NCBI RefSeq assembly: GCF_013623775.1
Contig: NZ_JABFAM010000023.1
Location: 1 to 64,000 of the forward strand
Source of the DNA: Rufibacter sp. XAAS-G3-1
Lineage (GTDB): Bacteria > Bacteroidota > Bacteroidia > Cytophagales > Hymenobacteraceae
Direction: 5' to 3'
Length of the DNA stretch: 64,000 nucleotides
In this document: positions 1,824 to 63,142 of the stretch, one piece after another
Numbering within the stretch: the first letter of the stretch is position 1
Layout of the letters: the number at the start of each line of letters is the position of its first letter
Notes under the pieces: generated by a model
Database searches by the model: none
What the model was told of the DNA's origin: nothing
What the model saw: only the letters and a program-made list of their open reading frames with translations
Made by a program: the position numbers and the translations under genes

Positions 1824-1863
1824 AAAACAGCCCCAAAGCGGATTTCCGTTTTGGGGCTGTTTT
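1824..1863 (+). terminator. pruA terminator hairpin built from the palindromic repeat (copy P1)
   Basis: Arms 1824-1841 and 1846-1863 pair over 18 bp with one mismatch around an ATTT loop, followed by TTTTGTTT. The unit is the right half of the dispersed repeat (CTGAAAACAGCCCC...) followed by its left half (CCGTTTTGGGGCTG...), so the halves are in reverse order relative to other copies. Confidence 0.8.
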
Positions 1864-1908
1864 GTTTAAAGAGCTTCTGAAATAAGTCTTTCTCCCTTTT
1901 GTCTTCCT

Positions 1909-2006
1909 CTTTTTGTCATCCTGAAAGGATCTTGGGGGCGAACGGCAGTAGCGCTTGTTCAAAGGCTTTTTTAGTTTGCTACCAAGATCTTTCCAAGATG
2001 ACAAAA
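1909..2006. repeat. Long imperfect inverted repeat of the TCATCCTGAAAGGATCT type
   Basis: Left arm CTTTTTGTCATCCTGAAAGG (from 1909) and right arm ending TTTCCAAGATGACAAAAG (2006) are near-complementary over about 26 bp and enclose about 45 bp. I recall this arm as a widespread intergenic repeat of Bacteroidota. The rest of 1864-2167 shows no coding potential. Confidence 0.6.
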
Positions 2007-2167
2007 GGAGGGAGGAGGCATTCATCAATCAAAAAGCAATGTGTTAAGCCAATAGGAATCTGCTAAGCAGCCAAATTTCATAGCAACGGCTTGAGATCCT
2101 ATTGCAGCGGTACGTGTAAATTAATCCCGAGGGCTGATTCTGCGTATGAAGGAGAAATACCTGTGCC

Positions 2168-2659
2168 ATGAACCAGACACCACCGCCCGTTATGCCAATT
2201 GATGAACGCCTGAAGTGGGTAGAGTCCATCTCCCGGTTACTGGACAACCAGTTTCAGTTGCCGGGCACGAAGTTCCGTTTCGGGCTAGATCCTATTATGG
2301 GGCTGCTGCCCGTGGTGGGCGATATTTCCTCCTTCGCCATGTCGGGTGTGTTGGTCATGACCATGGCCAAGCACGGGGCCAGCCGGGCGCTGGTGGTCAG
2401 AATGCTGTTGAATATCTTCCTGGATGCGATTATTGGCAGTATTCCCATTGTGGGCTGGCTCTTCGACTTCGGCTACAAGGCCAACCAACGGAACGTGAAT
2501 CTGTTAAAGAAACACTACCAGGAGGGCAAATACCAGGGCAAAGGCACCGGTTTTATCATTGGGGTGCTTGTCGCGTTTTTGATTCTTTTCGGGCTGCTGC
2601 TCTATGGCCTCTGGAAAATAGCCGAGTACCTGTGGCTGTGGGCGTCTTCAGCGTGGTAG
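2168..2659 (+). CDS. DUF4112 domain-containing membrane protein
   Basis: A 163-residue protein of the uncharacterised DUF4112 family. The family signature is visible: a start rich in W, L and D (RLKWVESISRLLDNQFQLPG), then FRFGLDPIMGLLPVVGDISS, and IGSIPIVGWLFDFGYKANQRN. Hydrophobic stretches around residues 48-68 and 88-108 and a clear C-terminal transmembrane segment around 127-150 indicate an inner-membrane protein. The two G-L/I-x-P-x-V-G-D/W motifs probably form paired hairpin membrane insertions (inference). No biochemical function is known. GGAG 17 bp before the ATG could act in ribosome binding. It is convergent with the ROK gene, separated by a giant hairpin. Confidence 0.85.
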   Translation: MNQTPPPVMPIDERLKWVESISRLLDNQFQLPGTKFRFGLDPIMGLLPVVGDISSFAMSGVLVMTMAKHGASRALVVRMLLNIFLDAIIGSIPIVGWLFDFGYKANQRNVNLLKKHYQEGKYQGKGTGFIIGVLVAFLILFGLLLYGLWKIAEYLWLWASSAW

Positions 2660-2675
2660 CAATTTAGGATGAATT

Positions 2676-2747
2676 CTTAAACAGTAAAGCCCCGTTTCAG
2701 GCCAGTTTTTAGAAAAACAGGCCTGAAACGGGGCTTTACTGTTTAAG
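2676..2747. terminator. Giant bidirectional hairpin between convergent genes (repeat copy P2)
   Basis: Arms 2676-2710 and 2713-2747 pair over 35 bp with one A/A mismatch and a 2-nt centre. The core CGTTTCAGGCC...GGCCTGAAACG is the dispersed palindrome, extended outward to CTTAAACAGTAAAGCCC and its complement. It sits between the stops of the DUF4112 gene and the ROK gene and should terminate both. Confidence 0.85.
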
Positions 2748-2762
2748 ATTAAGAAAGCAATC

Positions 2763-3995
2763 TTAATTATGCTCCAGGGCCAGGTAGCGGTGGCGCACCA
2801 GCAGGCAGGCTCCAATCACACCGGCCTGTTCGCCCAGTTTGGAGACCTTCAGTTTGGTGTCATTGTTCACCAGGCTGAGCGAATACCGTTTGATGGCGCT
2901 CTTGATGGGGAGCAGGATATAGTCTTCGGTAGAGGCCAGGCTGCCGCCCAATACCACCAGTTCGGGGTTGAAGATGTTGATGAGCAGGGCAATGCCGCGG
3001 CCAATCTTGTCGCCTATTCTGGCAATCAGTTCAATGGCCAGTACATCGTCTTTGTGGGCGGCATTGATGATATCGTCCAAGAGCAGGTCTTCGGGATGAA
3101 TGTTGTTTTGGGAGACAATGGTAGAAGCGCCGGCTTCCATGCTTTCCTTGAACATTTCTACCAACGCCCAGCCCGAGGCCTCAGTTTCCAGACAGCCTTT
3201 TTTGCCGCATTTGCACATCTTCTCGTTCTGGAAAATAGGAATGTGCCCAAACTCGCCAGAATAACCAGACTTGCCGTAGAACAGCTGGTTGTTGATGATC
3301 ATGCCCATGCCAATGCCGTAGTCCAGGTTCAGGAAAAGGACATCTTTCTCGTTATCTACCACGCCAGAGCAGAACTCGCCGTAGGCCATGGCGCGGGAAT
3401 CGTTCTCCAGAAACACCTTGATGCCAATCTCCTGCTCAATGACTTTGCTTAGCGGCGCGTCATGGAAATCAAAGAGGTTGTAGTTATAGCCTTTGGCGTA
3501 GTTGATGCGGCCCGACAGGTTGATGCCGATGCCCAGAATCTTCTCTTTGGGAATAGGTAAATCAGCGATGAAGTTGTTGATGATGTGGCAGAGTTCGTCC
3601 AGAGATTCCTTGTCGTTGGACAGCTTGTAGGGGTAGCTCTCAAAATCGCTGATCAGGTTTTTCTGGAAATCGGTGAGGCCTATGTTGATGTGGTTGATTT
3701 TGACGTCAATTCCCAGAAAGAACGCCGAATCTGGGGCCAGGCCGTAGACATTGGGTTTTCGGCCGCCCGTTGAATCCACTTTGCCGTGGTCTTGTACCAG
3801 CCCGTCCTGGATGAGGTCATTGAGCAGACTCGTGATCTTGGGCACGCTCAGGTTCAGTTCCTTGCCCAGTTCGGCAATGGTGGCGTTTCCGGTATTGGCA
3901 AAGTAAGCAATGACTTTCTTTTTAAGGTTGACATTCTTGAACGCCACGCCGGTTGGGAAATCACTGTTTATTTCCTCAAAGAAAGTCTTTGTCAT
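2763..3995 (-). CDS. ROK family transcriptional regulator / sugar kinase-like protein
   Basis: A 410-residue ROK protein with an N-terminal winged helix-turn-helix (about residues 25-85; ATIAELGKELNLSVPKITSL, then a wing ending STGGRKPNVYGL). An ASKHA-fold sugar-binding domain follows. The ROK zinc site is intact: EFGHIPIF followed by CKCGKKGCLE near residues 258-270, ligands H, C, C, C. In NagC/Mlc/XylR-type ROK repressors, binding of a sugar or sugar phosphate releases DNA. The ATP-binding DGxGxG motif is LDYGIGMG, so kinase activity cannot be excluded, but the HTH points to regulation. Targets are unknown; the nearest carbohydrate genes are at 16-30 kb. It ends at the giant hairpin. Confidence 0.88.
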   Translation of the reverse strand: MTKTFFEEINSDFPTGVAFKNVNLKKKVIAYFANTGNATIAELGKELNLSVPKITSLLNDLIQDGLVQDHGKVDSTGGRKPNVYGLAPDSAFFLGIDVKINHINIGLTDFQKNLISDFESYPYKLSNDKESLDELCHIINNFIADLPIPKEKILGIGINLSGRINYAKGYNYNLFDFHDAPLSKVIEQEIGIKVFLENDSRAMAYGEFCSGVVDNEKDVLFLNLDYGIGMGMIINNQLFYGKSGYSGEFGHIPIFQNEKMCKCGKKGCLETEASGWALVEMFKESMEAGASTIVSQNNIHPEDLLLDDIINAAHKDDVLAIELIARIGDKIGRGIALLINIFNPELVVLGGSLASTEDYILLPIKSAIKRYSLSLVNNDTKLKVSKLGEQAGVIGACLLVRHRYLALEHN

Positions 3996-4351
3996 TTTGT
4001 GTGAATTAGGGAGCTGGCGAGCAGCGGTAACTTGGTTTTCCTTACAAATTTAGGCATTTCCGCAAAAGGTATGTGTCTGTTGGCAGAATTCTTCTGTACC
4101 TACGTCTAAACCGTTTCCTCTGAGACAAAGAAGAGCACATTGCCGCCATGCGGAAAGACGCGGTCACCCAATTTAGAAAACGTTCTCCGTTTAGCGGCTT
4201 AATTTCTGAAAAACAATGAAAAATAGACCTGGCTTCGGGCAGCAACACTGGTTGGTGGTGCTTTCCGTGGGCCGCTTACGCTATTTTAAGCCTGTTTTTC
4301 TGAAATCGTGCCGAAAATGCGTAGCTTCCTTCCTTAATCCAGGGCCATTCT
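3996..4351. other. Intergenic region between ROK and plsC-like genes
   Basis: Holds the ROK promoter and a degraded copy of the palindromic repeat near 4284-4320 (TTTTAAGCCTGTTTTTCTG with a poor right half). Open frames here lack family features or coding character. Confidence 0.5.
4046..4053 (-). promoter_or_regulatory. Putative -7 element of the ROK gene
   Basis: The minus strand reads TAAATTTG (TAnnTTTG) 51 bp before the ROK start. A CAAA (minus-strand TTTG) is only 10 bp further upstream, so the -33 element is unclear. Confidence 0.35.
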
Positions 4352-5722
4352 ATGCTGTACTTTCTGCTCAAGACCATGTTTCAGGTAGCGTTGCGCGTGT
4401 TCTTCCGGCGTTTCACGGTGAACAACCGGCACCTGCTGTTCTCTGAAGGGCCGCTCATCGTGGTCTCCAACCACCCCAACACCCTCATGGATCCCGTGGT
4501 TACGGCCTCGCTCATGAAGCAGAACGTCTATTTCCTGGCCAAAAGCAGCTTTTTCAAACCGGGCCTCCAGGGCTGGCTTTTCCATAGATTGTTCATGATA
4601 CCGGTGTACCGCCGCGAAGACGTGGGCGACGGCGGCACCGCCCAGAACGACGCCACGTTTGCCAAATGCTACGAGTTCCTGGGCAAGGGCGGCACGCTCA
4701 TGGTATTCCCCGAGGGCAACAGTTTCATGCAGCGCCGCCTGCGTCCGCTCAAAACCGGCACCGCCCGCATCGGCCTGGGGGCCGAGGCCCAGCACAACTT
4801 CAACCTGGGGTTGCGCATCATTCCCGTGGGCGTCAACTACTCAGACCCGTCCCGGTTCCGGAGCGACGTGTTCGTGAATGTGGGCGAGCCCATCCAGGTC
4901 AAAGATTTCCAAGCGGCGTACGCCGAAGACCCCTTCCGAGCCGCCCACGCCCTCACCGACCACCTGAAGGAACGCCTGGAAGCCCTGGTCATCCACACCG
5001 ACACCGAGGAAGAAGACGCCCTCACCCGCCAGGTAGAAGCCGTGTACCAAGACAAACTGGTGAAAGAACTGGACCTAGCCGAGTCTGAGCCCGAAGAACG
5101 ATTCCTGATTACCAAAGGCATTGTACAGAGCATCAAATATTTTGAGTCCCGCGAGCCCGAACGCATCCACCACCTACGCACCGACTTGCAGGAATACCTA
5201 CAGCATTTAGAAAGCGTAGGGTTGGTGCCAGACGCCTTCAAGCGGATTCCCCGGCGACGCGAGGTGGCCTGGGGCACGGTACAGACCCTTCTCTATCTGC
5301 TGGTAGGCTTCCCTTTCTATCTCTTCGGGGTGGTTCATAATTACCTGCCGTATTTTTTGCCAGCCAAGGTGGCGCGGGCGCTCACCAAAGACATTGAGTT
5401 CTACGCCCCCATCATGATGACCATTGGCATGTTCACGTTCCCTGTTTTCTACGCCCTCATTGGCTGGGCCGTGCATGCCTGGCTAGGCCTCTCAGGAGGG
5501 GCGTTGGTGGGGTATCTGGTGGCCTTGCCCGTGACCGGTTTCTTTGTGCTGCACTACTGGCACCGCATTCAGGTAGCCCGCCGTAACTGGATCTTCTTCA
5601 CGCTGTTCTACCGTCGGTCAACCGTATTGCAAAGCCTGTTAGAGCAGCGCACCCGGTTACTGCATGCCTTGGAGCAAGCCCGCCAAGAGTTTTTGGCCTC
5701 TTTTCCGGATAAACAGCCCTGA
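4352..5722 (+). CDS. 1-acyl-sn-glycerol-3-phosphate acyltransferase family protein (PlsC-like)
   Basis: Membrane lysophospholipid acyltransferase-type enzyme, 456 residues. The catalytic block SNHPNTLMDP (residues 39-48) has the histidine at 41 and the aspartate at 47, an H-x5-D spacing that I believe is usual in this large Bacteroidota subfamily in place of the classical H-x4-D. The phosphate-binding motif VFPEGNS lies at 118-124. After the acyltransferase domain (about 1-215) come a helical linker and a C-terminal half with three or four membrane helices (about 310-420), absent from classical PlsC. Expected to acylate lysophosphatidate or a related lysolipid at the inner membrane. The stop codon TGA lies within a fragment of the dispersed repeat (ACAGCCCTGAAACG). 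Confidence 0.88.
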   Translation: MLYFLLKTMFQVALRVFFRRFTVNNRHLLFSEGPLIVVSNHPNTLMDPVVTASLMKQNVYFLAKSSFFKPGLQGWLFHRLFMIPVYRREDVGDGGTAQNDATFAKCYEFLGKGGTLMVFPEGNSFMQRRLRPLKTGTARIGLGAEAQHNFNLGLRIIPVGVNYSDPSRFRSDVFVNVGEPIQVKDFQAAYAEDPFRAAHALTDHLKERLEALVIHTDTEEEDALTRQVEAVYQDKLVKELDLAESEPEERFLITKGIVQSIKYFESREPERIHHLRTDLQEYLQHLESVGLVPDAFKRIPRRREVAWGTVQTLLYLLVGFPFYLFGVVHNYLPYFLPAKVARALTKDIEFYAPIMMTIGMFTFPVFYALIGWAVHAWLGLSGGALVGYLVALPVTGFFVLHYWHRIQVARRNWIFFTLFYRRSTVLQSLLEQRTRLLHALEQARQEFLASFPDKQP

Positions 5723-5731
5723 AACGAAGCG
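5701..5731. repeat. Half copy of the palindromic repeat overlapping the plsC-like stop (P4)
   Basis: TTTTCCGGATAAACAGCCC then TGAAACG matches the right half of the repeat. It overlaps the last codons and supplies the stop codon of the upstream gene. Confidence 0.5.
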
Positions 5732-5790
5732 TGCCTAGGGTGGCGGCTGGCAGCGCTTTTCTTGGTGACTGATGTTACGCACTTTGCTGG

Positions 5791-5853
5791 TGGCTTCCGG
5801 CGAGTCTGGGGACTCGCTTCATCCCCAGGCACGAGACTGGAGTCTCGCGCCAG
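5791..5853. repeat. Second dispersed repeat, GGCGAGTCTGG...GTCTCGCGCCAG (copy R2a)
   Basis: CCGGCGAGTCTGGGGACTCG, then CTTCATCCC, then CACGAGACTGGAGTCTCGCG-CCAG. Two nested inverted repeats (CGAGTC/GACTCG and CGAGACT/AGTCTCG) form a double hairpin. Near-identical copies lie at 9171-9229 and 61111-61180, shorter ones at 8915-8940 and 51476-51503. Confidence 0.75.
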
Positions 5854-5861
5854 TTGGTTCT

Positions 5862-5894
5862 AAACCTGTGAGGTCTCCAAGACCTCACAGGTTT
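5862..5894. repeat. Perfect palindrome AAACCTGTGAGGTCT-CCA-AGACCTCACAGGTTT (copy 1)
   Basis: 15-bp perfect arms (5862-5876, 5880-5894) around CCA. The identical sequence recurs at 61296-61328. Both copies sit beside a 38-bp palindrome and downstream of an R2 repeat. Confidence 0.8.
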
Positions 5895-5898
5895 TCGC

Positions 5899-5935
5899 GT
5901 TTAGGGCCTGTTTTCTGCAAAAGAGCCCTAAAACG
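5899..5935. repeat. Palindromic repeat copy P5
   Basis: CGTTTAGGGCCTGTTTTCTG followed by CAAAAGAGCCCTAAAACGG; arms complementary with few mismatches around the conserved TTTTCTG centre. Confidence 0.75.
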
Positions 5936-6073
5936 GAGGTGCATCTTTCTGGAGCGTCTGATTGCTTCTTCCAAGCTGCATAAGAGAATGAACCTGTTTA
6001 GTTAAGCCAAAGTAAAATACTTTCGCCCTTGCTGCGTGTTTTCACCAGCAAGCGGAAAGGCGCCTGCATCTGG

Positions 6074-6097
6074 ATTGTTGGTGAGAACACCAACAAT
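6074..6097. promoter_or_regulatory. Perfect stem-loop upstream of the small secreted protein
   Basis: ATTGTTGGTG (6074-6083), loop AGAA, CACCAACAAT (6088-6097): a perfect 10-bp inverted repeat 127 bp before the next gene, with no T-run. Operator or leader structure; role unknown. Confidence 0.45.
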
Positions 6098-6223
6098 GGC
6101 GGCTAGGTTGTCTATTCTTGTACTAGACTAAACAAGTTCAATGTAAATTTCCTGGGAAGCTTCAATTTTGGAACGGTATATGTATTACGGATTTCACGGC
6201 AGGAGCCGTTCTAAATATAACTG

Positions 6224-6658
6224 ATGATATCCCGTATGGAAATGAAAATTAACGCAGTTGGTGCCTTGTTACTGGCAGGGATTTTAACAATAACCGGAGC
6301 CTCGGCGAACGCCCAGGGTAAACCTCTGGATACTAACAAAGGCACCGTGCTGGCCATGGCCAACGCAGGCAAAGAGACACCCGTAAGGCGCGAGACCTTG
6401 TCTGGCATTGACCTGTTCCCCCAGGACAAGAAAGGAGACGTCTTTCTGCTCTCTTTCCAGCAGGACATGCCCGAAAGCGGTGTGCTGGAACTCACCAACT
6501 ACGCCGGGAAAGTGCTGTACACTAAATCCATTCCGGCCGGCGACCACACCTTGGCGGCTCCCCTGAACATTGGCAAGCTGGGAACGGGGACCTATCTGGT
6601 GGAAGTGAAAACGTCCAATACCGTGTACTGGAAAAAAATGCGCGTGCGGCGGAAATAA
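6224..6658 (+). CDS. Small exported protein with T9SS type A sorting-like C-terminal domain
   Basis: A 144-residue exported protein of unknown role. A signal peptide is clear (MKINAVGALLLAGILTITGA, cleavage after ASANA). In-frame ATGs lie at 6224, 6236 and 6242; 6242 gives the most normal signal peptide, so the true start may be 18 bp downstream of the one listed. The mature C-terminal part (about residues 75-144) has the beta-sandwich pattern of T9SS type A sorting domains: a turn (NYAGKVLYTKSIPAGDHT), then LNIGKLGTGTYLVEV, ending with basic KKMRVRRK. No separate cargo domain precedes it, which is odd for a sorting domain, so it may be a free-standing domain of that fold. Convergent with the lipoprotein gene downstream; a 17-bp inverted repeat (GAGAGGGCTGCGATG... 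6679-6715) may terminate both. Confidence 0.65.
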   Translation: MISRMEMKINAVGALLLAGILTITGASANAQGKPLDTNKGTVLAMANAGKETPVRRETLSGIDLFPQDKKGDVFLLSFQQDMPESGVLELTNYAGKVLYTKSIPAGDHTLAAPLNIGKLGTGTYLVEVKTSNTVYWKKMRVRRK

Positions 6659-6678
6659 TAAGATATAGCCATCCATGG

Positions 6679-8757: not shown

Positions 8758-8914
8758 GGTTCGCAGGGTTAGGTGGTATAAACCAGTGCCCGGGGCAGTT
8801 GTTTATGGTTTAGTAAACGGCGGGAAGGCGCGAGTGTTTTCTGAAGTTCCGGGGCTTGGGTGGACGGGGGTTGGGTTTTGGGGCTGAATTCAGGAGAGCA
8901 GCTTCAAAACACCT

Positions 8915-9278: not shown

Positions 9279-12200
9279 TTACTTCACTTGCACTTCTTTC
9301 AGGCCTTCCCGCCCGAAGAAAGTAGGGAAATACATTAATTCTGCGCGGGCGGGGTTCAGGGTGTAGGTGCCTTTGTAGCGGGGGAGGAGTTGGATGGTGA
9401 AGGTGTAGCTGCCCTTGCTCAGGTGGTTGGAGAAGATAGCCACTTTGTGCCGGAAGTACTCGCGGTGCGCCTCGTTACGGCCCCAACTGGATTTGGCGTC
9501 ATAGGTGCAACCGGCCGGAATAGGTACTTCAATCATCACGTAGGAGGCATCGGCTTTCACGTCTACTTCCACTTTCAGTTCTACCGGTTTGCCCGCGGTT
9601 AAAGTAGCTTGAGCCGATTTGGTGTTGGCGAAGGAAGTGCGTACTACAAAGTCCTTGTCTACCCGGGTCGGCTGGGCTATCCACTCGTTCTGGTAAGCGG
9701 TGAGATACAGCGGCAATAAACCTTGTTTGCGCAGCGTGAGCGGCTGGGTAGGAATAAAGGTGGTGTCTACCGGAAAACGGCGCAGAGTGGTGTTCAGGGC
9801 ACCCGTGAGCACCAAATTATTCTCGGGCGCAACGCCTTTCTCCTTTACCAAATCTGGCAACAAGGTCTCCAGCACGCGGGCAGATTCAAAGGTGTTGCGC
9901 CAATGGCCGGTACGCCGTTCACTGAGCAAAAAGGCTTGTATCTTAAGCAGTTCACGGGCATGCCCACCGGCGGCTTTCAGGATTTCGTAGACCAGCAAAG
10001 TATTGGAGATGTGGTTGTCAAAGAGGCTGCTTCGTTCCTTGCCCCAGTACACACCACCCAGCATAGTGGCGTGGCGGTATTTCTGAAGTGTATCCAGCGG
10101 TGCAGGCAAGTTTAACTTCTGCCGAAGCCTAGTGATGCGGAACTGTTCTTCCAGAGATAATTTGGGCTGTTTCTCCACTTTGGACACGTACGCCGGAAAG
10201 TCTACTTTGGCTTGTAACTGCTGTAGTATCTCCAGGGCTCTTATCTTGTCTGGCGCATCTTTCTTTTCAACATGATAGGTGAGGTAGTCAATTAAGGGCT
10301 GTTTTTTGAAACTGGTGGCAAAACCTTCCTGCTGGGCCATGACCAGGGCTTCGGTTACGTGGTGGCTTATCCAGATGTAGGCGGGGCCGGTTTCCCACCA
10401 ACTCCAGGTTCCGTCCTGCTGCTGGGTTTTCTCCAAGTGCCGGATGAGGCGGCGCACCATCTTTTCGTGCTCAAAGGGTTTGTCCAGCGCTGCCTGAATG
10501 CGCTTCTCCCAGAGCAGTCCCTTCAGTTTAGAGGCGGCCTGCTCGTTGCACCAGTACTCATAGCGGTGGAGCGCGTTAATCTCGTCCAGCATGACCTGCA
10601 GCAGATTGCTCTGCGCGTAGAAATGCACCGGGCCTTTGGCGGGGTCAAACGTGAGGGTCAGCGAGGTATCAACCGGCAGGGAGAGGAACTGGCCTTTCCG
10701 TTCCAGCACGCCTTTTTTGTACACGCCAATGTACCGCCGTTCGCCGTCTGAGAAACCCGCCCCTTGCTGTAAAGAGAAAAGCAATTCCACCGAGTCTGGT
10801 GCTACCGCCGGGGCCTGCACCAGCACGGTATCGGTGAACACGCGGCCTAGTTTCAGGTTTTGTTGCCTAAGCGTCTGGCCGTTGAAGGCAAAGGTGGTCT
10901 GCACCGATGCCGTATCTGGCAAGTAGTTCACGGCCTTGCCGATGATTTGCGTTTTATCCCCTTCAATCAAAAAACGGGGGCCGCTCAGCGTTGCCATCAT
11001 AGCTTTGAAAGACCTGATTTCAGTGCTGGCGGTGCCGCTGCGTTTGTTTCCGTCCATGGCCAGTACGTGGGTTTTCCAACTGGTCACATCGCCGGGGAAC
11101 GTGACCGGGAACGTGGCTTTGCCTTGTTTGTCGGTAGCCAGGCGCGGTTGCCAGAAAGCGTAATCAGAAAAGTAGCTTCGGATGGAGGAGGTAGCGTCTG
11201 CCTCGGCGCCAGCCATCAAGGATTGCTCGGCATCGGCTTTGCCTTTCTTGGTGGTGATAATAATGACACCGTTTGCCGCTGCGGAACCATAAATGGCTTT
11301 GGCAGCCGCATCTTTCAAGGTGGTAGTAGAGGCAATGGAGCTAGCGGAAATGTCTCCTAAATTGCCGCTGAACGGCACGCCGTCTACTATGATAAGCGGC
11401 TGGTTATTGCCTTGAATAGATGAAACACCTCGGATATTGATGCTGCTGCCAGGATTTCCAACAACTAGTCCTGCTACTCTGCCATTCAGTTCAGAACGCA
11501 CGACTGCCATAGAATAAGTCATTTCCCTCTTTTCCTGAGCCCCATAGCCAACCACCACTACCTCGCTTAAGGCTCTGGCATCGGAGGCTAATTTTATCTC
11601 AATTCGGCTGCTGCCTTTTACCGGGACTTCCTGGCTCACATACCCAATAAAAGATACTACCAGAATAGCGTTGGCTGGAGTAGTGATGGTAAACCTTCCG
11701 TCTACATCTGTGGCAACTGCCGAGCTCGTGCCTTTTACCTGCACCGTGGTTCCAGGCATGGGTTCTCCGGTTTCCTTGTCCAACACCCGGCCCCACACCT
11801 GGTCTGAAAAGCCCCCGGAATAACTGTAGGAGACCGAGGGAACATTGGGGGAAACGGGCTTGGGAAGCGGAGCGGTGGTGGTGGCGCTTTGCATGGCTCT
11901 TTCCACGCTGTTCTGGAGATACTTTTCCAACGCCTTGGTTTCTGGGGCAGGCTTCTGCAGTTGACTCTTGGTGAAGTTGAGGCGCAGCACGCCGTCGGGC
12001 TTCACGGTAATGCGTGCGCTGAGATGGCTTTGGTCGGGGAACACCAACGTGAACTGATATTCACCGGGGTACACCTGATGTAGCTGTGCCAGACTTCCGC
12101 GGTACATAGAGACCTGGTGGGTGGCCGCATCTGGCGCGTAGAGGAAAAGAACCTGCGGGCTCATCTGGAAAGTTGAATCCAGGTGCCATTGCAAGCGGCC

Positions 12201-15200
12201 GTAGCCCGGCAAGGTGCGGTATTCCGGTTGGTTCAGGAGGTGCGAAAGCCAGAACTGGTACTGTGTGTTCTCCCACTGCTTCAATAAGCTGGCCTCCGTT
12301 AAAGGGATTTCGGCTAAACGACTGAGGGCGAGTACGTAGGAGTCTGTTTTGTTTGAAAGTAGCACTCTACCCGGGAACGTCGGTTTTTCGCGTAGTTTCA
12401 GCAAACCAGGCTCAAAATGGTGCGTGTAGTTGGGCTCTGGGGTGAAGTTGGTGGTAAAGCTGCCCAAAGTGTGAAACTGCATCACATCGGGCTTAAAGGG
12501 GCCGGTTAACAGGATATTGCCTCTGGTTTTCTGAGTGAAATACCCGCGCGGCTGGTGGCTGTTGGGCAGAAACTGAACCAGGCGGCCTTGCTTCAAGTAG
12601 GAGAGGCCAGAGGAGAAGTTCTGCTCCACCGGCACCAGGTATTGGGTAAGCGTCTCTTGTTCTGAAGCGGTGAAGCGCCCTTTCTCCATCTCCTGTAACT
12701 GTTGCGGCAGCTTGTTCTGGTCAATGCTGAGGATGAGTTTCTGCCCTTGTTTCAGATAAACACTGTCTAACGTGATGAGGTGGTTGGCCGTGCGAAGTTT
12801 CAGGTGATGGTACCCGCTGTCGGCGGGGAAGGAGTAGGGCGGCACCACATCTGTGCCGGAGAAATACACGGGTACCTGGTTCAGGTAGATGACGTGCACC
12901 GGCACCACCCGGCCCGAGTCTACCACGAAGGGCGCCAACTGGGTAAGGCTGTCACTAGAGGCGGCATAATTAGTGAACATTCCCTGCGCGGGATACAACA
13001 ACTGATAATAGGAAAGGCTGTCTAGTCCCATTTCCTGCCGCCAGGTATTCCAGTGCAGTAACTGACTGCCTCTGTCGGGAGTATCTGCTATTTTGAAGGA
13101 ACGCCTGTTTTTCCGGCCTTGGTAGGAACCAAAGAATGGCACATTAGGTGGCGAAGCGGCCTTGAATTTTGAGGTAAGGGCATAGGCCGTGAGGTCAACG
13201 TGAGGCGCCGGTTTGCCTTTCGCGTCTTTCACCTCCAAGGTGAGGTTGGTTTGCTGACCGGGGTACACCGTGGCGGGAGCATTGACCGTAATGTCAAGCT
13301 CCCGCTTCCGGAAAGGGGCATTGTACTCATTGCTCTGCACCTGACCGCCCCACACGTACTGCACCGATGCGTAGTACGGCTCTTCGTTGCTGGCTTTTCT
13401 GGTGTAGTACCAGGCCGAAGTAGTGTCCTGTCCACGGTCAATAAGTTGGTTGTTCCGGTAAATGAAGTACCAGAAAGGCAGCTTTCTGGGGTTGTCAATG
13501 GTGAGGAAAAGGGAATCAGCGGTTCGGTCTGAGAAAAACTGAAAGTTGGCACTTTCGTCTCTAAGAGATAAAGAGGCTTTTAGGTTTCCGGTAGAAATTT
13601 CATAGTCGCGGGCATACGGCTGCAACGGAAGAAGCGCCGGAAGCTGTACTTTCTGCGTCTGGAGCTTTTTATTCTTTTCATCCCTGAGAACCAGCGTGGC
13701 CGCTTTGGGGAGTGACTTTTCGCCTTCCAGGTATTGGGCCAACACACTGTCATTTTTAAGGGTAAGCAGCAGATGGCCTTCTTCAAAGGAATAAGTACCG
13801 TTAGCCGATTTCTCGGTGCGTTCATTGCTAGAGTTCAGGAACGCGGCTTGTACCTCGTATACAATCTTCGCCTTCGGGAAAATAGTAGGCGGAAGCTTGA
13901 TGGTGGTTTCCCCCGAGTTTTCCAGTGGCTGTTGGTGCACCCAAAGCGTATCTGGGATAAACTGCACGGCTTCTTTGGTCTGCCTGATTTGGCGCGTGAG
14001 CACCGTCAGTTCCACGCGGGCATCGGGCAAGGTGAGGCCGTTGGCGTCTGCCCCACGCACCACCACCTGGTTGGTGGTGCCGGCAAAGTGTTCTTTGTGT
14101 TCTAGCCGAAGGGTGAAGGTGTTTTCCTTCAGTTCATAGTCTTCATACTTAAACTGGGAGTTGATGATTCTTTTATCGTCCCATTTTTTCTCCCGCATTA
14201 GGTTCAGATTCACATAGGTGTCCAACCTAAATTGGAGGGAATCGTGAAGAACGAATGCACCTTCGTAGGCGCCCGGGCGGTAGGGTTTCAAGGCGCCTAC
14301 CCTTTTGGTTTTGCTATTGCCATTAACCTCCGCTATCAAAGGTTTTCGGTAAGGCTTTCCGTTTTTCTTCACCAGAAAAGCCTTATAGCGCACCGTGTCA
14401 TTGGGCCGGTACATGGGCTTGTTCAGGGCTAAATAACCCCTAGGTTTGTTTTTCTGATTTCCATAGTTGTCGCGGTAGTCTTGGTCAAAAATGGAAAATA
14501 TGCTTCGTACCAAGCCCTGCGGCTCATGGTACGTCAGGCTCTGGACAATATTCCGGAAGGGCTGCCAGACATAATACAAAGGTTTACGGAATACAATCTT
14601 TTTCCAAAGCGGAGTAGGGTAGGGCAGCCTTTGGGCGTCAGTCGCCAAGGGCACATAAAAGGTAAAACCCTCCTGCGTCACTGAAAGTAACCCGCTCTTT
14701 TTGTGTTTGGCCAGGCGGTAGCTTTGGGTGGCCGCATCAAACGGCACTTTCTTCTTGTTTACCTGTACCAGAGCATTGCTGATGAGATTACCCAACGAGT
14801 CGTGCAGCACCGCCGCCAAGTCTACGTGGTTCTTGAGCAATTGCACCTGCGCATTGGTTTTGCTGTGCAGCGAGTACTCCAAATCTGGCCCCGATGTGTA
14901 GGTGTACAGGTAATGTCCCTGAGTCAACCGCTTCTGATAGGTCAACTGCGTAGGAAAGGAATCTACCTTGGTATGGAAAAAGCTCTCCCGGGCCGCCTGC
15001 ATCCCTTTCTCATACAGTTGTTTCGCCTCTGCGTTCGTAATCTTGTAGATGTACGTGTAGTAGCTGGTAGTGCGGCTGTTGGTCAGGTTCCGTTGAGCCG
15101 TAGCACCCGTATAGGTAAGCAGCAGACCGCAGGTGAACAGCAGAAACGCAAGGCAAGGTCTTAGGACACGGGGCAGAGGCATGGGGCGCTTTTTTGTTTT

Positions 15201-15230
15201 AATATAGCGAAAAACCTTTTTACTTGGCAT
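9279..15230 (-). CDS. Alpha-2-macroglobulin-like protein with internal carboxypeptidase-regulatory and TonB plug domains
   Basis: A giant exported protein of 1983 residues. An N-terminal signal or anchor segment is visible (PCLAFLLFTCGLLLTYTGAT, cleavage near residue 46); the ATG at residue 17 (15182) is an alternative start. Residues about 100-1100 hold macroglobulin-type beta domains, with the MG2 signature LNKPMYRPNDTVRYKAFLVK. At about 1145-1235 there is a CarboxypepD_reg-like domain (VWGRVLDKETGEPMPGTTVQ), followed at about 1240-1330 by a TonB plug domain (INIRGVSSIQGNNQPLIIVD, YGSAAANGVIIITTKKGK). The A2M core then resumes (FPGDVTSWKTHVLAMDGN) with YWCNEQAAS near residue 1560, matching the CxEQ thioester site. 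No beta-barrel follows the plug. A2M proteins trap proteases or protect the envelope; the plug could serve docking to an outer-membrane partner (inference). Confidence 0.9.
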   Translation of the reverse strand: MPSKKVFRYIKTKKRPMPLPRVLRPCLAFLLFTCGLLLTYTGATAQRNLTNSRTTSYYTYIYKITNAEAKQLYEKGMQAARESFFHTKVDSFPTQLTYQKRLTQGHYLYTYTSGPDLEYSLHSKTNAQVQLLKNHVDLAAVLHDSLGNLISNALVQVNKKKVPFDAATQSYRLAKHKKSGLLSVTQEGFTFYVPLATDAQRLPYPTPLWKKIVFRKPLYYVWQPFRNIVQSLTYHEPQGLVRSIFSIFDQDYRDNYGNQKNKPRGYLALNKPMYRPNDTVRYKAFLVKKNGKPYRKPLIAEVNGNSKTKRVGALKPYRPGAYEGAFVLHDSLQFRLDTYVNLNLMREKKWDDKRIINSQFKYEDYELKENTFTLRLEHKEHFAGTTNQVVVRGADANGLTLPDARVELTVLTRQIRQTKEAVQFIPDTLWVHQQPLENSGETTIKLPPTIFPKAKIVYEVQAAFLNSSNERTEKSANGTYSFEEGHLLLTLKNDSVLAQYLEGEKSLPKAATLVLRDEKNKKLQTQKVQLPALLPLQPYARDYEISTGNLKASLSLRDESANFQFFSDRTADSLFLTIDNPRKLPFWYFIYRNNQLIDRGQDTTSAWYYTRKASNEEPYYASVQYVWGGQVQSNEYNAPFRKRELDITVNAPATVYPGQQTNLTLEVKDAKGKPAPHVDLTAYALTSKFKAASPPNVPFFGSYQGRKNRRSFKIADTPDRGSQLLHWNTWRQEMGLDSLSYYQLLYPAQGMFTNYAASSDSLTQLAPFVVDSGRVVPVHVIYLNQVPVYFSGTDVVPPYSFPADSGYHHLKLRTANHLITLDSVYLKQGQKLILSIDQNKLPQQLQEMEKGRFTASEQETLTQYLVPVEQNFSSGLSYLKQGRLVQFLPNSHQPRGYFTQKTRGNILLTGPFKPDVMQFHTLGSFTTNFTPEPNYTHHFEPGLLKLREKPTFPGRVLLSNKTDSYVLALSRLAEIPLTEASLLKQWENTQYQFWLSHLLNQPEYRTLPGYGRLQWHLDSTFQMSPQVLFLYAPDAATHQVSMYRGSLAQLHQVYPGEYQFTLVFPDQSHLSARITVKPDGVLRLNFTKSQLQKPAPETKALEKYLQNSVERAMQSATTTAPLPKPVSPNVPSVSYSYSGGFSDQVWGRVLDKETGEPMPGTTVQVKGTSSAVATDVDGRFTITTPANAILVVSFIGYVSQEVPVKGSSRIEIKLASDARALSEVVVVGYGAQEKREMTYSMAVVRSELNGRVAGLVVGNPGSSINIRGVSSIQGNNQPLIIVDGVPFSGNLGDISASSIASTTTLKDAAAKAIYGSAAANGVIIITTKKGKADAEQSLMAGAEADATSSIRSYFSDYAFWQPRLATDKQGKATFPVTFPGDVTSWKTHVLAMDGNKRSGTASTEIRSFKAMMATLSGPRFLIEGDKTQIIGKAVNYLPDTASVQTTFAFNGQTLRQQNLKLGRVFTDTVLVQAPAVAPDSVELLFSLQQGAGFSDGERRYIGVYKKGVLERKGQFLSLPVDTSLTLTFDPAKGPVHFYAQSNLLQVMLDEINALHRYEYWCNEQAASKLKGLLWEKRIQAALDKPFEHEKMVRRLIRHLEKTQQQDGTWSWWETGPAYIWISHHVTEALVMAQQEGFATSFKKQPLIDYLTYHVEKKDAPDKIRALEILQQLQAKVDFPAYVSKVEKQPKLSLEEQFRITRLRQKLNLPAPLDTLQKYRHATMLGGVYWGKERSSLFDNHISNTLLVYEILKAAGGHARELLKIQAFLLSERRTGHWRNTFESARVLETLLPDLVKEKGVAPENNLVLTGALNTTLRRFPVDTTFIPTQPLTLRKQGLLPLYLTAYQNEWIAQPTRVDKDFVVRTSFANTKSAQATLTAGKPVELKVEVDVKADASYVMIEVPIPAGCTYDAKSSWGRNEAHREYFRHKVAIFSNHLSKGSYTFTIQLLPRYKGTYTLNPARAELMYFPTFFGREGLKEVQVK

Positions 15231-45853: not shown

Positions 45854-45892
45854 ACGGTTTTGAACCTGTTTTCCTGAAATGAGCTTAAAAAC
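45854..45892. repeat. Palindromic repeat copy P20
   Basis: ACGGTTTTGAACCTGTTTTC then CTGAAATGAGCTTAAAAACG; its right end merges with the dps terminator stem. Confidence 0.65.
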
Positions 45893-45923
45893 GCCCCTGC
45901 ACTTTAAGTGCAGGGGCGTTTTT
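45887..45923 (+). terminator. dps terminator
   Basis: AAAAACGCCCCTGCACTT and AAGTGCAGGGGCGTTTTT form an almost perfect hairpin of up to 18 bp; the 5' A-run comes from the palindromic repeat P20. Confidence 0.92.
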
Positions 45924-54502: not shown

Positions 54503-54605
54503 CTTTCATTTCAGAAAGCAGCAGGCAGCGGCTTTGTTGCGCAGGGTTCTATGGTTTAAGTGCAATTTGGTAAAAACCTGCCATAAACGGCGCCGTAAAA
54601 CGGTG

Positions 54606-56357: not shown

Positions 56358-57338
56358 ATGTATTTCAATCATGTTATAGAGGCCATTGGCAACACGCCAT
56401 TGGTAAAACTGAACAGCGTCACAGACGGAGTAAAAGCCACTGTGTTGGCGAAAGTAGAATATTTCAACCCGGGCAACTCAGTGAAAGACCGGATGGCCCT
56501 GCGCATGGTGGAAGACGCCGAGAAAGCGGGCATCCTGAAACCGGGCGGAACCATCATTGAAGGTACTTCGGGCAACACCGGGATGGGATTGGCCTTGGCC
56601 GCCATCGCCAAAGGCTACAAATGTATCTTCACCATGTCAGACAAGCAGAGCAAGGAGAAGATTGACATCTTGAAAGCCGTAGGGGCCGAGGTAATGGTGT
56701 GCCCTACCAACGTGGCCCCTGAGCACCCAGATTCCTACTACTCCGTGGCCAAGCGCCTGAACCAGGAGATTCCCAACTCGTTCTACCCCAACCAGTACGA
56801 CAACCTCTCCAACACCGCCGCCCACTATGATACCAGCGGGCCCGAGATTTGGAAACAGACTGATGGTAAAATCACCTGCTTCGCCTCTGGCGTGGGCACG
56901 GGCGGTACCATCTGCGGCATCTCCAAATACATGAAAGAGCAGAAGGCAGACATCAAAGTGGTGGGTATTGACACCTACGGCTCGGTGTTCAAGAAATACA
57001 AAGAGACCGGCGTTTTTGACGAGGCCGAAATCTACCCGTACGCCACCGAGGGCATTGGTGAAGACATTCTGCCCAAAAACGTGAACTTCGATTTAATTGA
57101 TACTTTCATCAAAGTAAGCGATAAAGACGGTGCGGTGATGACCCGCCGCCTGGCCAAGGAAGAAGGTCTTTTTGTGGGCTGGTCTTCTGGCTCTGCGGTA
57201 CACGGCGCACTGGAATACGCCCGCGAGCACCTCACCGAAAACGATACCCTGGTAGTGGTATTACCCGACCATGGTACCCGTTACCTGGCCAAGATTTACA
57301 ACGATGACTGGATGCGGGCGCAAGGTTATCTTGACTAA
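56358..57338 (+). CDS. PLP-dependent cysteine synthase / cystathionine beta-synthase family enzyme
   Basis: A 326-residue fold-type II PLP enzyme. NPGNSVKDRMALRMVEDAEK carries the PLP lysine (near 43), EGTSGNTGMGLALAAIAKGY the substrate loop and SGVGTGGTICGISKYMKEQK the phosphate-binding loop. Segments such as MSDKQSKEKIDILKAVGAEV, CPTNVAPEHPDSYYSVAKRL and YDNLSNTAAHYDTSGPEIW match the catalytic core of cystathionine beta-synthase more than O-acetylserine sulfhydrylase, and the CBS regulatory domains are absent. The reaction is either cystathionine formation from serine and homocysteine or cysteine synthesis; the former is my preference. Cytosolic, monocistronic. Confidence 0.88.
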   Translation: MYFNHVIEAIGNTPLVKLNSVTDGVKATVLAKVEYFNPGNSVKDRMALRMVEDAEKAGILKPGGTIIEGTSGNTGMGLALAAIAKGYKCIFTMSDKQSKEKIDILKAVGAEVMVCPTNVAPEHPDSYYSVAKRLNQEIPNSFYPNQYDNLSNTAAHYDTSGPEIWKQTDGKITCFASGVGTGGTICGISKYMKEQKADIKVVGIDTYGSVFKKYKETGVFDEAEIYPYATEGIGEDILPKNVNFDLIDTFIKVSDKDGAVMTRRLAKEEGLFVGWSSGSAVHGALEYAREHLTENDTLVVVLPDHGTRYLAKIYNDDWMRAQGYLD

Positions 57339-59424: not shown

Positions 59425-59480
59425 AGCCGGTGGTTTTGGCCCCGTTTTTAGAAAACGGGGCCAAAACCACCGGCTTTTTT
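59425..59480 (+). terminator. Terminator of the kinase-receiver operon (palindromic repeat copy P26)
   Basis: Arms 59425-59448 and 59452-59475 (24 bp, perfect; core GGTTTTGGCCCCGTTTT) with a 3-nt loop, then TTTTTT. The repeat core has become a full rho-independent terminator. Confidence 0.93.
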
Positions 59481-59549
59481 TATGGAAGTAACCCATGCGC
59501 AAAAGTCATTATGCCATTATTGCATGACAGGTGTGCCTTGGAAAAAATG

Positions 59550-59870: not shown

Positions 59871-59980
59871 CACGCAAAAAGCAGCCAAGCCAAGGGATCA
59901 GCAGAAGACGTGCACTTACCAATTCTCCCCAAAGAGGCCAGTCCCAAGCAGATGCCAAAGCACAGAAAGGAACCTCGCTA

Positions 59981-60868: not shown

Positions 60869-61110
60869 AAAAGAATACGCTTCTTCCCCAGTGAGTCCAG
60901 GAAGCTCAAATCAAAGGAAACAACATATTGCTTACCGTCCTACAGAAAGAAATGTTATCCTTGTAAAAGCGGTCCTTTGCCAGAAGGCTACTGAAATAAC
61001 TCAAGTTGCGATTTACAATACCCCGGCTTCGGGCGGCATCGGTGCTCAGAAACAGTTTGTTTCATGGCTGAAAGCTTTTTTACTTCTGTCTAACACTCCG
61101 CAGTGCTGTT

Positions 61111-61180
61111 GGTGGTTTCCGGCGAGTCTGGAGACCCGCTTCATCCCTCGGTCACGAGACTGAAGTCTCGCGCCAGCGCT
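61111..61180. repeat. Second dispersed repeat (R2e)
   Basis: CCGGCGAGTCTGGAGACCCG, CTTCATCCC, CACGAGACTGAAGTCTCGCG-CCAG; near-copy of R2a, with single-base changes that break one stem. Confidence 0.75.
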
Positions 61181-61262
61181 TTGGAACAGCCAGCTTCCGC
61201 GATGCCGCCTGCTCCAAAGACCTCGTAGGGTGCGCAGCTCCTGCGAGGGTCTACGCCAACAA

Positions 61263-61300
61263 CGTTTCAGGCCCATTTTCCGAAAAACAGCCCCAAAACC
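61263..61300. repeat. Palindromic repeat copy P27
   Basis: CGTTTCAGGCCCATTTTCCG then AAAAACAGCCCCAAAACC. Confidence 0.7.
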
Positions 61301-61328
61301 TGTGAGGTCTCCAAGACCTCACAGGTTT
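61296..61328. repeat. Perfect palindrome AAACCTGTGAGGTCT (copy 2)
   Basis: Identical to 5862-5894 over all 33 bp, arms 61296-61310 and 61314-61328. Confidence 0.8.
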
Positions 61329-61331
61329 CTA

Positions 61332-61369
61332 CGTTTCTAGCCTGTTTTCCTGAAAACAGGCTAGAAACG
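61332..61369 (-). terminator. Perfect 18-bp hairpin (palindromic repeat copy P28)
   Basis: CGTTTCTAGCCTGTTTTC (61332-61349) and GAAAACAGGCTAGAAACG (61352-61369) with loop CT; the best consensus-like copy. 71 bp past the ade stop on the minus strand. Confidence 0.8.
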
Positions 61370-61439
61370 CATCAGTGGGGCTTTTCTCTATAACTGGGAG
61401 AAGGGGAGTTTTGGGCCAACCCACTCAGCATACGTGAAT

Positions 61440-63098
61440 TTATTTTCCTTCCCGGGAGTTGCTCGTCACCTCTACAAACGCAAAATGCTGGCCGTCAAAC
61501 AAACCTTTGTCGCTCAGTTTCAGGGCTGGAATGACCAAAAGGGCCATAAACGACAGGGTCATGAAAGGCGAGGTAAGGGTGCTGCCCAGTTCTTTGGCGG
61601 TGCGGTCTAGCTTGGCGTACTGTTCGGCCACCCAGTAGCCGTCCTCCCCCGACATGATGCCCGCTACCGGTAAGGGCAAAATTTCCTCTCTTCCTTCGGC
61701 TACCGCCGAAATTCCGCCTTTGGCGGCAATCAGGAGATTGACCGCGCGGCACAGGCTTTCATCGTCAACGCCTACGGCTATGATGTTGTGCGAGTCATGG
61801 CCAACGCTGGAGGCAATGGCGCCGCGTTGAAGCCCGAAGTTCTTGATGAAAGCAATAGCGGGTTGGGTGTTCTGGTAGCGGTTCACCACGGTCATCTTCA
61901 GGACATCCTGCGCCAGGTCGCTTACAATGTTGCCGTTCTCTATCTTAGGATCCAGCAGCAGCATGCCGGTGACCAGTTGCCCATTGTACGGCTCAATCAC
62001 GCGTATTTTCACCGCATCTTGCGCCGGAAACGCGAACTGTTCCACGGTTTTGGGCTGGGCGTGGAAGTTGTTGATGATTTCGCTGGGCGTGAATTCAATC
62101 TTGCTCTGGCTATTCTCAGCGACCAGTTTCCCGTCTATATAGGTTCTGAGCACGTTGAAATCTTCCAGGTTGTCTATCACTATAAAATCAGCGGGGTCTT
62201 TTTCCTGGAGCAGGCCCACTTCCAGTTTGTAGTGCTGCACGGGGTTCACGCAGGCGGCCTGTAGCACGTGGAACAACTCATGGCCTTTGGCCAAGGCGCG
62301 CTTCACGAGTTCATTGATGTGGCTTTCCACCAGGTTGTCGGGGTGCTTGTCATCAGAGCAGAACATGATTTTGTCTGGGTGTTCCGCCAGTAGTTCAATG
62401 AGGGCCTCAAAGTTTTTGGCGGCGCTGCCTTCGCGTATGAGAATCTTCATGCCGGCGGCCAGTTTGTCGCGGGCTTCCTCGGCGGTAAAGCACTCGTGGT
62501 CGGTGGTCATACCGGCGGCGGCGTAGGCTTTGGCTGCTTCGCCCCGCAGGCCGGGGGCGTGGCCGTCTACCTGCTTGTCAAACTTCTGCGCCAGCGTTAT
62601 CTTCTGCATCACCAGGTCATCGCCGCTCAGGACGCCGGGCCAGTTCATCATCTCCGCTAAGTATTTCACCTCGGGACGAAGAAAAAGCTCCTCAATGTCC
62701 TCGGGCGTGATTTCGGCCCCGGCCGTTTCAAAAGGCGTGGCGGGTACGCAAGACGGTGCTCCGAAGAAAAACTTGAACGGCACTTTCTTGCCGTTCTCCA
62801 GCATGTACTCCACGCCTGGCAGGCCCAGCACATTGCCAATCTCGTGCGGGTCAGACACGGTAGCCACGGTGCCGTGCGGCACGGCCAGCCGCGCGAACTC
62901 AGACGGCACCAGCATGGAACTCTCCACGTGCACGTGCGCGTCAATGAACCCCGGCAACAGGTAGTGTGTTTCGGCTACGGATTCCCGTATGATCCTGGCA
63001 ATCTGACCGTCCATGATCTCCAGGGTGCCCTGGTAGATTTCCTGGTGCAGGATGTCTATGATGTTGCCGCTCATTTTGTAGAATCTTGGGGTAGCCAT
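61440..63098 (-). CDS. ade: Adenine deaminase
   Basis: A 552-residue Ade-type adenine deaminase (amidohydrolase family), converting adenine to hypoxanthine in purine salvage. Metal-binding start of the barrel: [20 protein letters not shown], then [68 protein letters not shown] (His, Glu), [11 protein letters not shown] (Asp). The C-terminal adenine-deaminase domain includes [20 protein letters not shown]. The dinuclear site residues are all present. Length agrees with the family. Palindromic repeats flank the gene on both sides. Confidence 0.96.
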
Positions 63099-63104
63099 GG
63101 GATG

Positions 63105-63142
63105 TTTTTAAGGAGTTTTCAGAAAAGTAATCCGGAAACGGG
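63105..63142. repeat. Degenerate palindromic repeat copy P29
   Basis: TTTTTAAGGAGTTTTCAGAA then AAGTAATCCGGAAACGG, directly upstream of ade. Confidence 0.5.

Follow-up and report, generated by a model that had tools for sequence, protein, structure and literature searches.

A genus-specific family of 40 bp intergenic inverted repeats with conserved positions, constrained half-sites and lineage dialects in Rufibacter

A 64,000-nucleotide stretch of Rufibacter sp. XAAS-G3-1 (positions 1 to 64,000 of contig NZ_JABFAM010000023.1, here called the window; contig 15 of the 73 that make up this 5.3 Mb source genome) contains 32 copies of a 40 bp inverted repeat, plus one marginal match at 54551. The element has a fixed geometry and a high copy number, is restricted to the genus, and occupies fixed positions in those intergenic gaps that can be mapped between species. 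Its conservation is specific to certain columns of the half-site, the two halves of most copies do not pair with one another beyond what the consensus provides, and some lineages spell the half-site in a dialect of their own. We propose, with about even confidence, that these elements are DNA sites for a probably dimeric factor, that they are kept by purifying selection, and that some of them double as transcription terminators. Where genomes need to be told apart the source genome is labeled G000, and G001, G003, G004, G005, G007, G009, G012, G013 and G014 are other members of the genus. Among the named genomes found, Rufibacter roseus has the protein most similar (85%) to the NAGLU protein of the window.

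Architecture, abundance and placement of the element

The initial annotation of the window described palindromes of ~38 bp with a most constant center. An 18-column position weight matrix (PWM), refined from the half-site given there, trained on the 29 window copies and run on both strands, resolves the unit as two 18 bp halves, AAAACAGSCCNAAAACGG, inverted around 4 bases, giving a measured length of 40 bp (18+4+18). Each half consists of an A/T tract, a GC-rich block and a second A/T tract. When spacings from -10 to +40 are allowed, strong half-sites form 154 inverted pairs, 151 of them with a spacer of exactly 4. Strong half-sites number 441, against 11 in shuffled DNA; 135 of them lack an equally strong partner, but mostly have a degenerate one, and the median partner score is high. 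The constancy of the center applies to the A/T tracts on either side, whereas the central 4 nt vary freely in the source genome; in G012, G013 and G007, by contrast, the tetranucleotides CTGG/CCAG (also CTGA/TCAG in G012) dominate. Rigid spacing, free spacer sequence and half-sites constrained column by column together describe a dyad site.

A second PWM, built from G012, was used for the cross-species scans, and PWM thresholds ranged from 16 to 24, varying between scripts. The PWM scanner penalizes spacers other than 4 by 3 bits, and its spacer tallies therefore lean to 4, although the free-spacing count is unaffected. A covariance model (R1) built from the 29 window copies (alignment A2) works for finding copies and recovers the same window set as the weight matrix. 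There are no Rfam matches at gathering score in the window.

The family extends well beyond the window. In 400 kb taken from 20 places in the source genome there are 230 copies and none in shuffled sequence at the same threshold (244 and one at the laxest threshold; the control is one order-3 Markov shuffle per stretch), which rules out chance or base composition as its origin. With the window included, 262 copies are present in 464 kb, which extrapolates to ~3,000 per genome. A strict, dialect-free pattern (GTTT-N9-TTT-N4-AAA-N9-AAAC) has 1,325 matches in the source genome and 186-1,561 in each of 16/16 Rufibacter genomes, but only 0-3 per genome in all 184 other family members, 24 of which have any; a reversed-pattern control gives 0 to 2 matches per genome. 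With scoring limited to 150 candidates per genome, which caps the counts, R1 yields 90-150 matches in each of the 16 genus genomes, and outside the genus matches in one genome of 23 (G022, two matches, best E 1e-8). A homologous family was absent from 80 kb sampled in each of five genomes of four other genera, where the palindromes are mostly terminator-like and have no such consensus. The initial annotation was thus correct in proposing a real repeat family, the enrichment being genome- and genus-wide. No description of this family was found in the literature searched, where most subscription papers lay outside reach, and the accessible part of the RepRanger paper (PMC12306157) makes no mention of Rufibacter or Hymenobacter.

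The centers of 243 of the 262 copies (93%) are intergenic, while non-coding DNA makes up 24% of the sample (genes were called by a simple hexamer scorer, not taken from annotation), in agreement with the intergenic bias reported initially. Densities are 2.67 copies per kb of gap between tail-to-tail genes, 2.23 between co-oriented genes and 1.98 between head-to-head genes, and within co-oriented gaps the copies lie nearer to the upstream 3' end than to the downstream start (medians 105 and 265 nt). Because head-to-head gaps need no terminator and yet are almost as dense, termination cannot explain the bulk of the copies, as the initial annotation had argued from their placement around genes.

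Conserved positions, column constraint and lineage dialects

Orthologous gaps were mapped in the 15 other genus genomes by way of the window genes, in two neighborhoods around pheT and uvdE (window 1.8-22 kb and 44-60 kb). Twenty-four gaps could be mapped in at least four genomes. Sixteen hold a copy in the source genome; among the 141 mapped cases of these gaps in other genomes, 119 also hold one, and 13 of the 22 misses come from one rearranged gap; the eight gaps without a copy in the source genome are occupied elsewhere in only 5/114 cases, a contrast that is partly one of length since the copy-free gaps are short. Position provides the stronger test: across all nine sets of gaps that allow it, the median absolute deviation of the distance from copy to gene end is 0-4 bp (P 0.0005-0.004 relative to copies placed at random), and the copy following the stop codon at 57338 has its center 23 to 33 nt past that codon in 14/14 genomes. 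Comparisons of pairs of species agree with this: G004 has a counterpart for 10/10 mapped copies of G014 in one region and for 7/7 in the adjoining region (one copy being common to both), and G003 has one for 9/9.

The rearranged gap, at 5722-6235, is more than 950 bp long in 12 of the 13 other mapped genomes, and in G003 and G009 inspection by eye shows an open reading frame (ORF) of ~700 bp there. This ORF is missing from the source genome, which instead has a family copy and a second palindrome; with such a rearrangement the unique copy proves nothing about insertion.

Within orthologous copies the constraint is confined to particular columns. Using gaps with a single spacer-4 copy and at least five genomes (84 copies, 10 gaps, 344 pairs), orthologs differ at half-site columns 2, 3, 13 and 14 in 7, 4, 4 and 1% of comparisons, but in 71% at column 11, in 60% over the four central positions and in ~62% in the sequence directly flanking the element. 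Mean arm mismatch is 0.33 between orthologs and 0.37 between non-orthologous copies from different genomes. Beyond the core shared by the family, each site therefore preserves little of its ancestral sequence. Passive fossil repeats are ruled out by this column-specific conservation, as plain decay would diverge evenly. Gene conversion between copies would homogenize the variable columns, and their randomness in the source genome (column 11: A31 T30 C23) argues against it.

Several lineages have nonetheless respelled particular columns, and this can be seen in eight orthologous gaps that are separate from the best-match regions of G013, G007 and G001. In G012, where the half-site reads AAATGAGSCCGAAAACGG (129 copies in 260 kb), column 5 is G in 17/18 halves compared with 23/246 in the others; columns 11-12 are AA in 33/34 halves of G013 and G007 (48/230 in the others) and CT in 7/14 halves of G005 (6/250). 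Fisher P values for these column pairs range from 3e-7 to 1e-18, and the family thus has lineage dialects of the kind that characterize DNA uptake sequences (DUS). A pheT tree places G012 as sister to G001 (support 0.999), and G001 keeps the common form, so the G012 respelling occurred on one branch at many sites. In those G012 copies not fully matched at nine other columns, the halves agree at column 8 in 25/68 where 34.2 are expected; this deficit argues against recent replacement by perfect-palindrome copies and for site-by-site adjustment. Perfect copies account for 23/128 in G012 (6.0 expected) and could be recent arrivals.

Pairing between halves, terminator-like copies and the window set

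The initial annotation held that the arms co-vary to keep pairing and that some copies had been recruited as terminators. Covariation among the 29 window copies is modest (score 0.244, against 0.172 when shuffled), and when the halves of 247 copies are re-paired the excess proves to be confined to 37 (15%) with 16-18 pairs, where 5.0 are expected; 17 are fully paired (18 pairs) against 0.1 expected. The remaining 210 have a mean of 11.54 pairs, compared with 11.46 when halves are re-paired and the same cut is applied. Co-variation of the arms thus holds for a minority and not for the bulk, and a pure RNA-structure family is rejected on the lack of pairing signal in the latter. A second split classed copies by nine other columns, independent of those tested (4, 7, 8 and 10), and has the same outcome: in G000 copies that are not fully matched, pairing is at or below expectation at the four columns (column 8 pairs in 71/201, 87.3 expected, P 0.02; column 10 in 90, 83.3 expected), while in fully matched copies columns 8 and 10 are paired in 35 and 36 of 49 (23.1 and 24.1 expected, P 8e-4 each). 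The shortfall at column 8 is seen in the not-fully-matched copies of G012 as well as in those of G000 (P 0.02-0.03 for each genome, out of 20 tests of this kind); the two halves there tend to differ, one having G and one C, which perhaps marks an asymmetric sub-type with an orientation.

The over-paired copies have several terminator-like properties. Gaps with a gene 3' end hold 36/38 of those with 16 or more pairs, compared with 168/206 of the others; T-runs accompany 7/38 and 11/206 respectively, and stems extended into the flanks 11/38 and 5/206. In G012, 18 of the 21 perfect copies listed are no more than 30 nt from a stop codon. Between species, the arms covary at gap 54394 (15.5 pairs, 12.7 expected, P 0.0005) and gap 59378 (14.3 and 11.6, P 0.001), although in five of eight ortholog sets the number of pairs within a copy is no higher than that obtained by exchanging halves among species. 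Two further genes were chosen for a perfect G012 copy alongside (sets A and B). In set A the copy is 8-31 nt after the stop codon in 9/14 genomes, and an orthologous site that is a perfect hairpin in one species can be imperfect in a second; in set B 13/16 genomes have a copy no more than 100 nt from the stop codon, several with compensatory lower stems. The over-paired minority, with its bias to gene 3' ends, most likely acts as intrinsic transcription terminators, in keeping with the recruitment proposed initially. It shares stem extension, some T-runs, covariation and 3'-end location with intrinsic (Rho-independent) terminators, but the bulk of copies are without these features and are present in head-to-head gaps; a GC-rich paired stem with a T-run downstream of genes is found in a minority only.

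Many perfect copies in G013 (L074-L081) and G012 (L201-L211) have locus-specific stem extensions beyond the 40 bp (for example AAGCCACTC...GAGTGGCTTTTTT), and judging from these sequences one arm may have been rewritten from the other by template switching.

The copies in the window are listed in Table 1. They occur at ~0.57 per kb, or one per 1.8 kb, close to the one per 2 kb first estimated. Of the 29 coordinates reported at that time, 28 mark one copy each, with starts no more than 16 bp off, and the remaining one (1824) corresponds to two neighboring copies; those at 8873-8912 and 12381-12420 had not been listed. At 1802-1885, behind an aldehyde dehydrogenase gene, the intact inner halves of two adjacent half-degenerate copies make a new palindrome. 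A second palindrome, AAACCTGTGAGGTCT-n3-AGACCTCACAGGTTT, occurs at 5862-5894 and 61296-61328, where family copies adjoin it on one side or on both. Its core has 14 matches (with up to 3 substitutions) in the 464 kb of the source genome and one in another genus, g2 (L231:10081), and it therefore belongs to a separate, wider family.

Table 1. Family copies in the 64,000-nucleotide window, with covariance model (CM) scores. Occupancy refers to orthologous gaps in mapped genomes.
Coordinates	Feature	Score
1802..1841	Copy, degenerate left half; forms the '1824' composite palindrome with the next copy	CM 40.2 bits; PWM 38.4
1846..1885	Weak copy, degenerate right half; left half pairs with right half of the 1802 copy	CM 19.8 bits
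2692..2731	Copy, 17/18 paired, flank-extended stem; terminator-like, tail-to-tail gap	CM 51.9 bits
4281..4320	Copy	CM 35.4 bits
5687..5727	Copy, 5-nt spacer; overlaps 3' end of ORF 4352-5722	CM 27.8 bits
5897..5936	Copy; adjoins unrelated palindrome 5862-5894; gap occupied in source genome only (1/14)	CM 43.4 bits
7825..7864	Copy; gap occupied in 14/15 genomes including source	CM 43.5 bits
8873..8912	Copy; gap occupied in 9/9 mapped genomes	CM 36.5 bits
12381..12420	Copy inside 1,983-aa ORF 9279-15230	CM 36.8 bits
15251..15290	Copy, head-to-head gap; 7/8 mapped genomes occupied	CM 40.9 bits
16458..16497	Copy	CM 36 bits
17761..17800	Copy, degenerate right half	CM 29.5 bits
19379..19418	Copy	CM 44.7 bits
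22066..22105	Copy; gap occupied in 3/4 mapped genomes	CM 39.6 bits
26768..26807	Copy	CM 40.5 bits
29200..29239	Perfect copy (18/18), flanking stem extension	CM 44.6 bits
30494..30533	Copy	CM 38.8 bits
30575..30614	Copy	CM 37.3 bits
30846..30885	Copy	CM 35.6 bits
43993..44032	Copy, 17/18 paired; gap occupied in 5/5 mapped genomes	CM 51.5 bits
45113..45152	Copy, head-to-head gap; 12/13 mapped genomes occupied	CM 37 bits
45198..45237	Second copy, same gap as the 45113 copy	CM 42.8 bits
45855..45894	Copy, tail-to-tail gap, directly before ordinary perfect hairpin 45889-45921	CM 39.4 bits
46067..46106	Copy, same gap as the 45855 copy	CM 34.8 bits
51296..51335	Copy upstream of pheT; 12/15 mapped genomes occupied	CM 40.8 bits
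52226..52265	Copy; 15/15 mapped genomes occupied	CM 43.1 bits
54459..54498	Perfect copy (18/18), terminator-like; 15/15 mapped genomes occupied; arms covary between species	CM 51 bits
57344..57383	Copy just after stop codon; 14/14 mapped genomes occupied; arms without covariation	CM 38.6 bits
59431..59469	Perfect copy, 3-nt spacer, extended stem and T-run, terminator-like; 7/8 mapped genomes occupied	CM 36.2 bits
61262..61301	Copy; overlaps edge of palindrome 61296-61328	CM 43.2 bits
61331..61370	Copy, 17/18 paired; other side of palindrome 61296-61328	CM 49.8 bits
63102..63141	Weak copy	CM 30.5 bits

Possible roles of the family

We infer that a protein binds these elements, that selection rather than a copying process keeps their core, and that the dialects reflect co-evolution with the specificity of the factor. 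The 40 bp inverted repeat would be read as double-stranded DNA, with its half-sites at the rigid 4 bp spacing suited to a dimeric (or dyad) protein. The ancestor of the genus would have acquired the sites in bulk between genes; purifying selection on the core columns would then keep them placed, with turnover at the variable columns and in the central 4 bp and flanking DNA, and a subset would have turned into perfect or near-perfect, often stem-extended hairpins acting as terminators. A chromatin or nucleoid organizer, a boundary protein or possibly a type II topoisomerase would fit as the factor. As to the origin of the copies, the data would accommodate an ancient burst of a mobile palindrome that was domesticated afterwards.

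Several observations weigh against binding sites kept by selection. Gap length confounds the occupancy contrast, with 28 of the 114 copy-free cases coming from two gaps of at most 2 bp. G007 has a counterpart for only 7/10 mapped copies of G013, and in set A 5/14 genomes have no copy near the stop codon. The core columns are equally conserved between non-orthologous copies (1-6%) and orthologs, and the copies were detected with a PWM or covariance model that favors the core, such that detection adds to the core-flank contrast; outside the one rearranged gap, however, 119/128 mapped cases are occupied, so few copies can have been dropped by core-biased detection. Pairing is slightly in excess in gap set 45078 (P 0.014). 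In G012, G013 and G007, perfect copies with identical arms outnumber the independent-column prediction, which would also fit a recent spread of new copies; the sampled regions of G013, G007 and G001 were picked around best matches, and densities and perfect-copy fractions there are biased. Finally, no candidate binding factor was found: HU-family genes (PF00216) are not expanded, with 1-2 per genome inside and outside the genus, and their copy number is thus uninformative as a lead.

The initial annotation suggested a repetitive extragenic palindromic (REP)-like mobile palindrome and proposed a search for a REP-associated tyrosine transposase (RAYT). In such a REP or REPIN-like system a non-autonomous palindrome would be copied by a domesticated RAYT (Y1/HUH) transposase, with slow transposition and old copies decaying in place. 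The Rufibacter family resembles the REP, BIME and REPIN-RAYT systems (GTAG and CGTC families) in being short, intergenic, palindromic and present in thousands of copies, some acting as terminators at gene ends; its two inverted half-sites recall REPINs, as far as these are described in the accessible part of PMC8049555, and its perfect arm-identical copies are what recent copying would leave. The source genome has one Y1_Tnp-type gene (188 aa, with an HxH motif seen by eye), and 15 of the 16 genus genomes have one to six Y1_Tnp (PF01797) matches, 45 in all. These genes do not track the family, however: G007, with 607 strict-pattern copies, is without a PF01797 match at E <= 0.001, although a past loss or a remote RAYT is possible there, and outside the genus Y1_Tnp matches are present in 18 of 23 genomes, which lack the repeats. 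At 14 of the 45 loci (one per genome; gene ends were set by a crude ORF rule, which did not work for L051) only 8 copies lie within 250 bp of the gene ends, a density of 1.1 per kb where gaps of the sampled genome have 2-2.7 per kb, and the symmetric flanking of a REPtron, in which a RAYT is bordered by its own repeats, is not seen. A GTAG or CGTC tag falls within -2..+6 of the end in 15/262 copies each (0.057, against backgrounds of 0.072 and 0.042). RAYT-driven mobility is thus unsupported by RAYT presence, RAYT neighborhood or end tags.

Nor was an insertion confirmed between G013 and G007, where one of three counterpart-less copies was aligned (the others are at 13795 and 17531). At that copy, G013 L184:7886, G007 keeps the apparent outer end of the right arm, making deletion likelier than insertion. 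The presence/absence comparison of orthologous gaps that was also proposed therefore finds 119/141 occupied and one aligned absence that looks like a deletion. With positions nearly fixed across divergent species whose intergenic DNA is otherwise nearly randomized, a division into conserved and free columns that passive decay cannot produce, a 4 bp dyad center and most copies without inter-half pairing, we regard a REP or REPIN-like family as unlikely. Beside the G013 copy, at L184:7740-7900, there are tandem-like GAGTCGCGAGTTCTGAGTCTTGAGTCGCGAGTC-type repeats, and similar strings occur near a few other copies.

A genus-specific style of terminator or 3'-end RNA hairpin that accounts for all copies is improbable. 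It would explain the extended stems, T-runs and covariation of the over-paired subset and the proximity of co-oriented copies to upstream 3' ends, but not the density of head-to-head gaps, the 210/247 copies without pairing beyond the consensus, outward flanks that are A-rich rather than T-rich at +1 to +3, or the absence of this family from the four other genera sampled; to our knowledge, moreover, terminators need no shared arm sequence. We see equally little chance that the half-site or dyad is an uptake-type signal preferred in natural transformation, spread and homogenized by biased recombination that also yields dialects. The parallel with the DUS of the Neisseriaceae is close, since these too have thousands of copies, lineage dialects and inverted pairs serving as terminators (PMC3630211, accessible part), but the Rufibacter unit is itself the inverted pair, 40 bp long, mostly paired at a fixed spacing and 93% intergenic, whereas DUS are often intragenic according to the same source. 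It is similarly doubtful that the elements are preferred binding or cleavage sites of DNA gyrase or topoisomerase IV, as proposed for Escherichia coli BIME-2. The E. coli gyrase motif is reported to have a symmetric 36 bp center around a 4 bp cleavage site with flanks phased at 10.75 bp, and BIME-2 to be enriched in gyrase cleavage sites (PMC6379681, accessible part). The Rufibacter elements agree with such a role in their dyad symmetry, their 4 bp center (the type II cleavage stagger), their alternating A/T and G/C blocks at helical spacing and their location next to transcription units, and the DNA flanking the 40 bp carries a weak periodic A/T signal (P 0.005, the lowest value obtainable with 200 jittered controls). 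That flank signal peaks closer to a 9 bp period than to one of 10.75 bp, however, depends on the genome and is fed by element-adjacent bases, and degenerate gyrase recognition seems unlikely to create strict dialects.

Binding sites held in place by purifying selection thus remain our preferred explanation. The sites of proteins that organize the nucleoid or chromosome, such as parS and matS, are likewise dyad DNA sites kept in place by selection, although the Rufibacter sites are far denser and restricted to one genus. More tentatively, and at somewhat less than even confidence, we suggest that they form a genus-specific fixed grid of roughly 3,000 intergenic dyad sites in every orientation, maintained ever since the genus arose and, in some lineages, respelled in concert as a DNA-binding factor changed specificity; this would be a boundary- or chromatin-type system, parts of which have been converted to terminators.

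The usual explanations for extragenic palindromes in bacteria are mobile REPs, terminators and uptake words. The Rufibacter palindromes, a very dense family, behave like a network of conserved sites, with the same place, the same core and a lineage-specific spelling. The family offers a clean system in which to follow the gain, retention, concerted respelling and terminator conversion of sites, and makes testable whether a dense intergenic site system with a dedicated reader can evolve within one genus.

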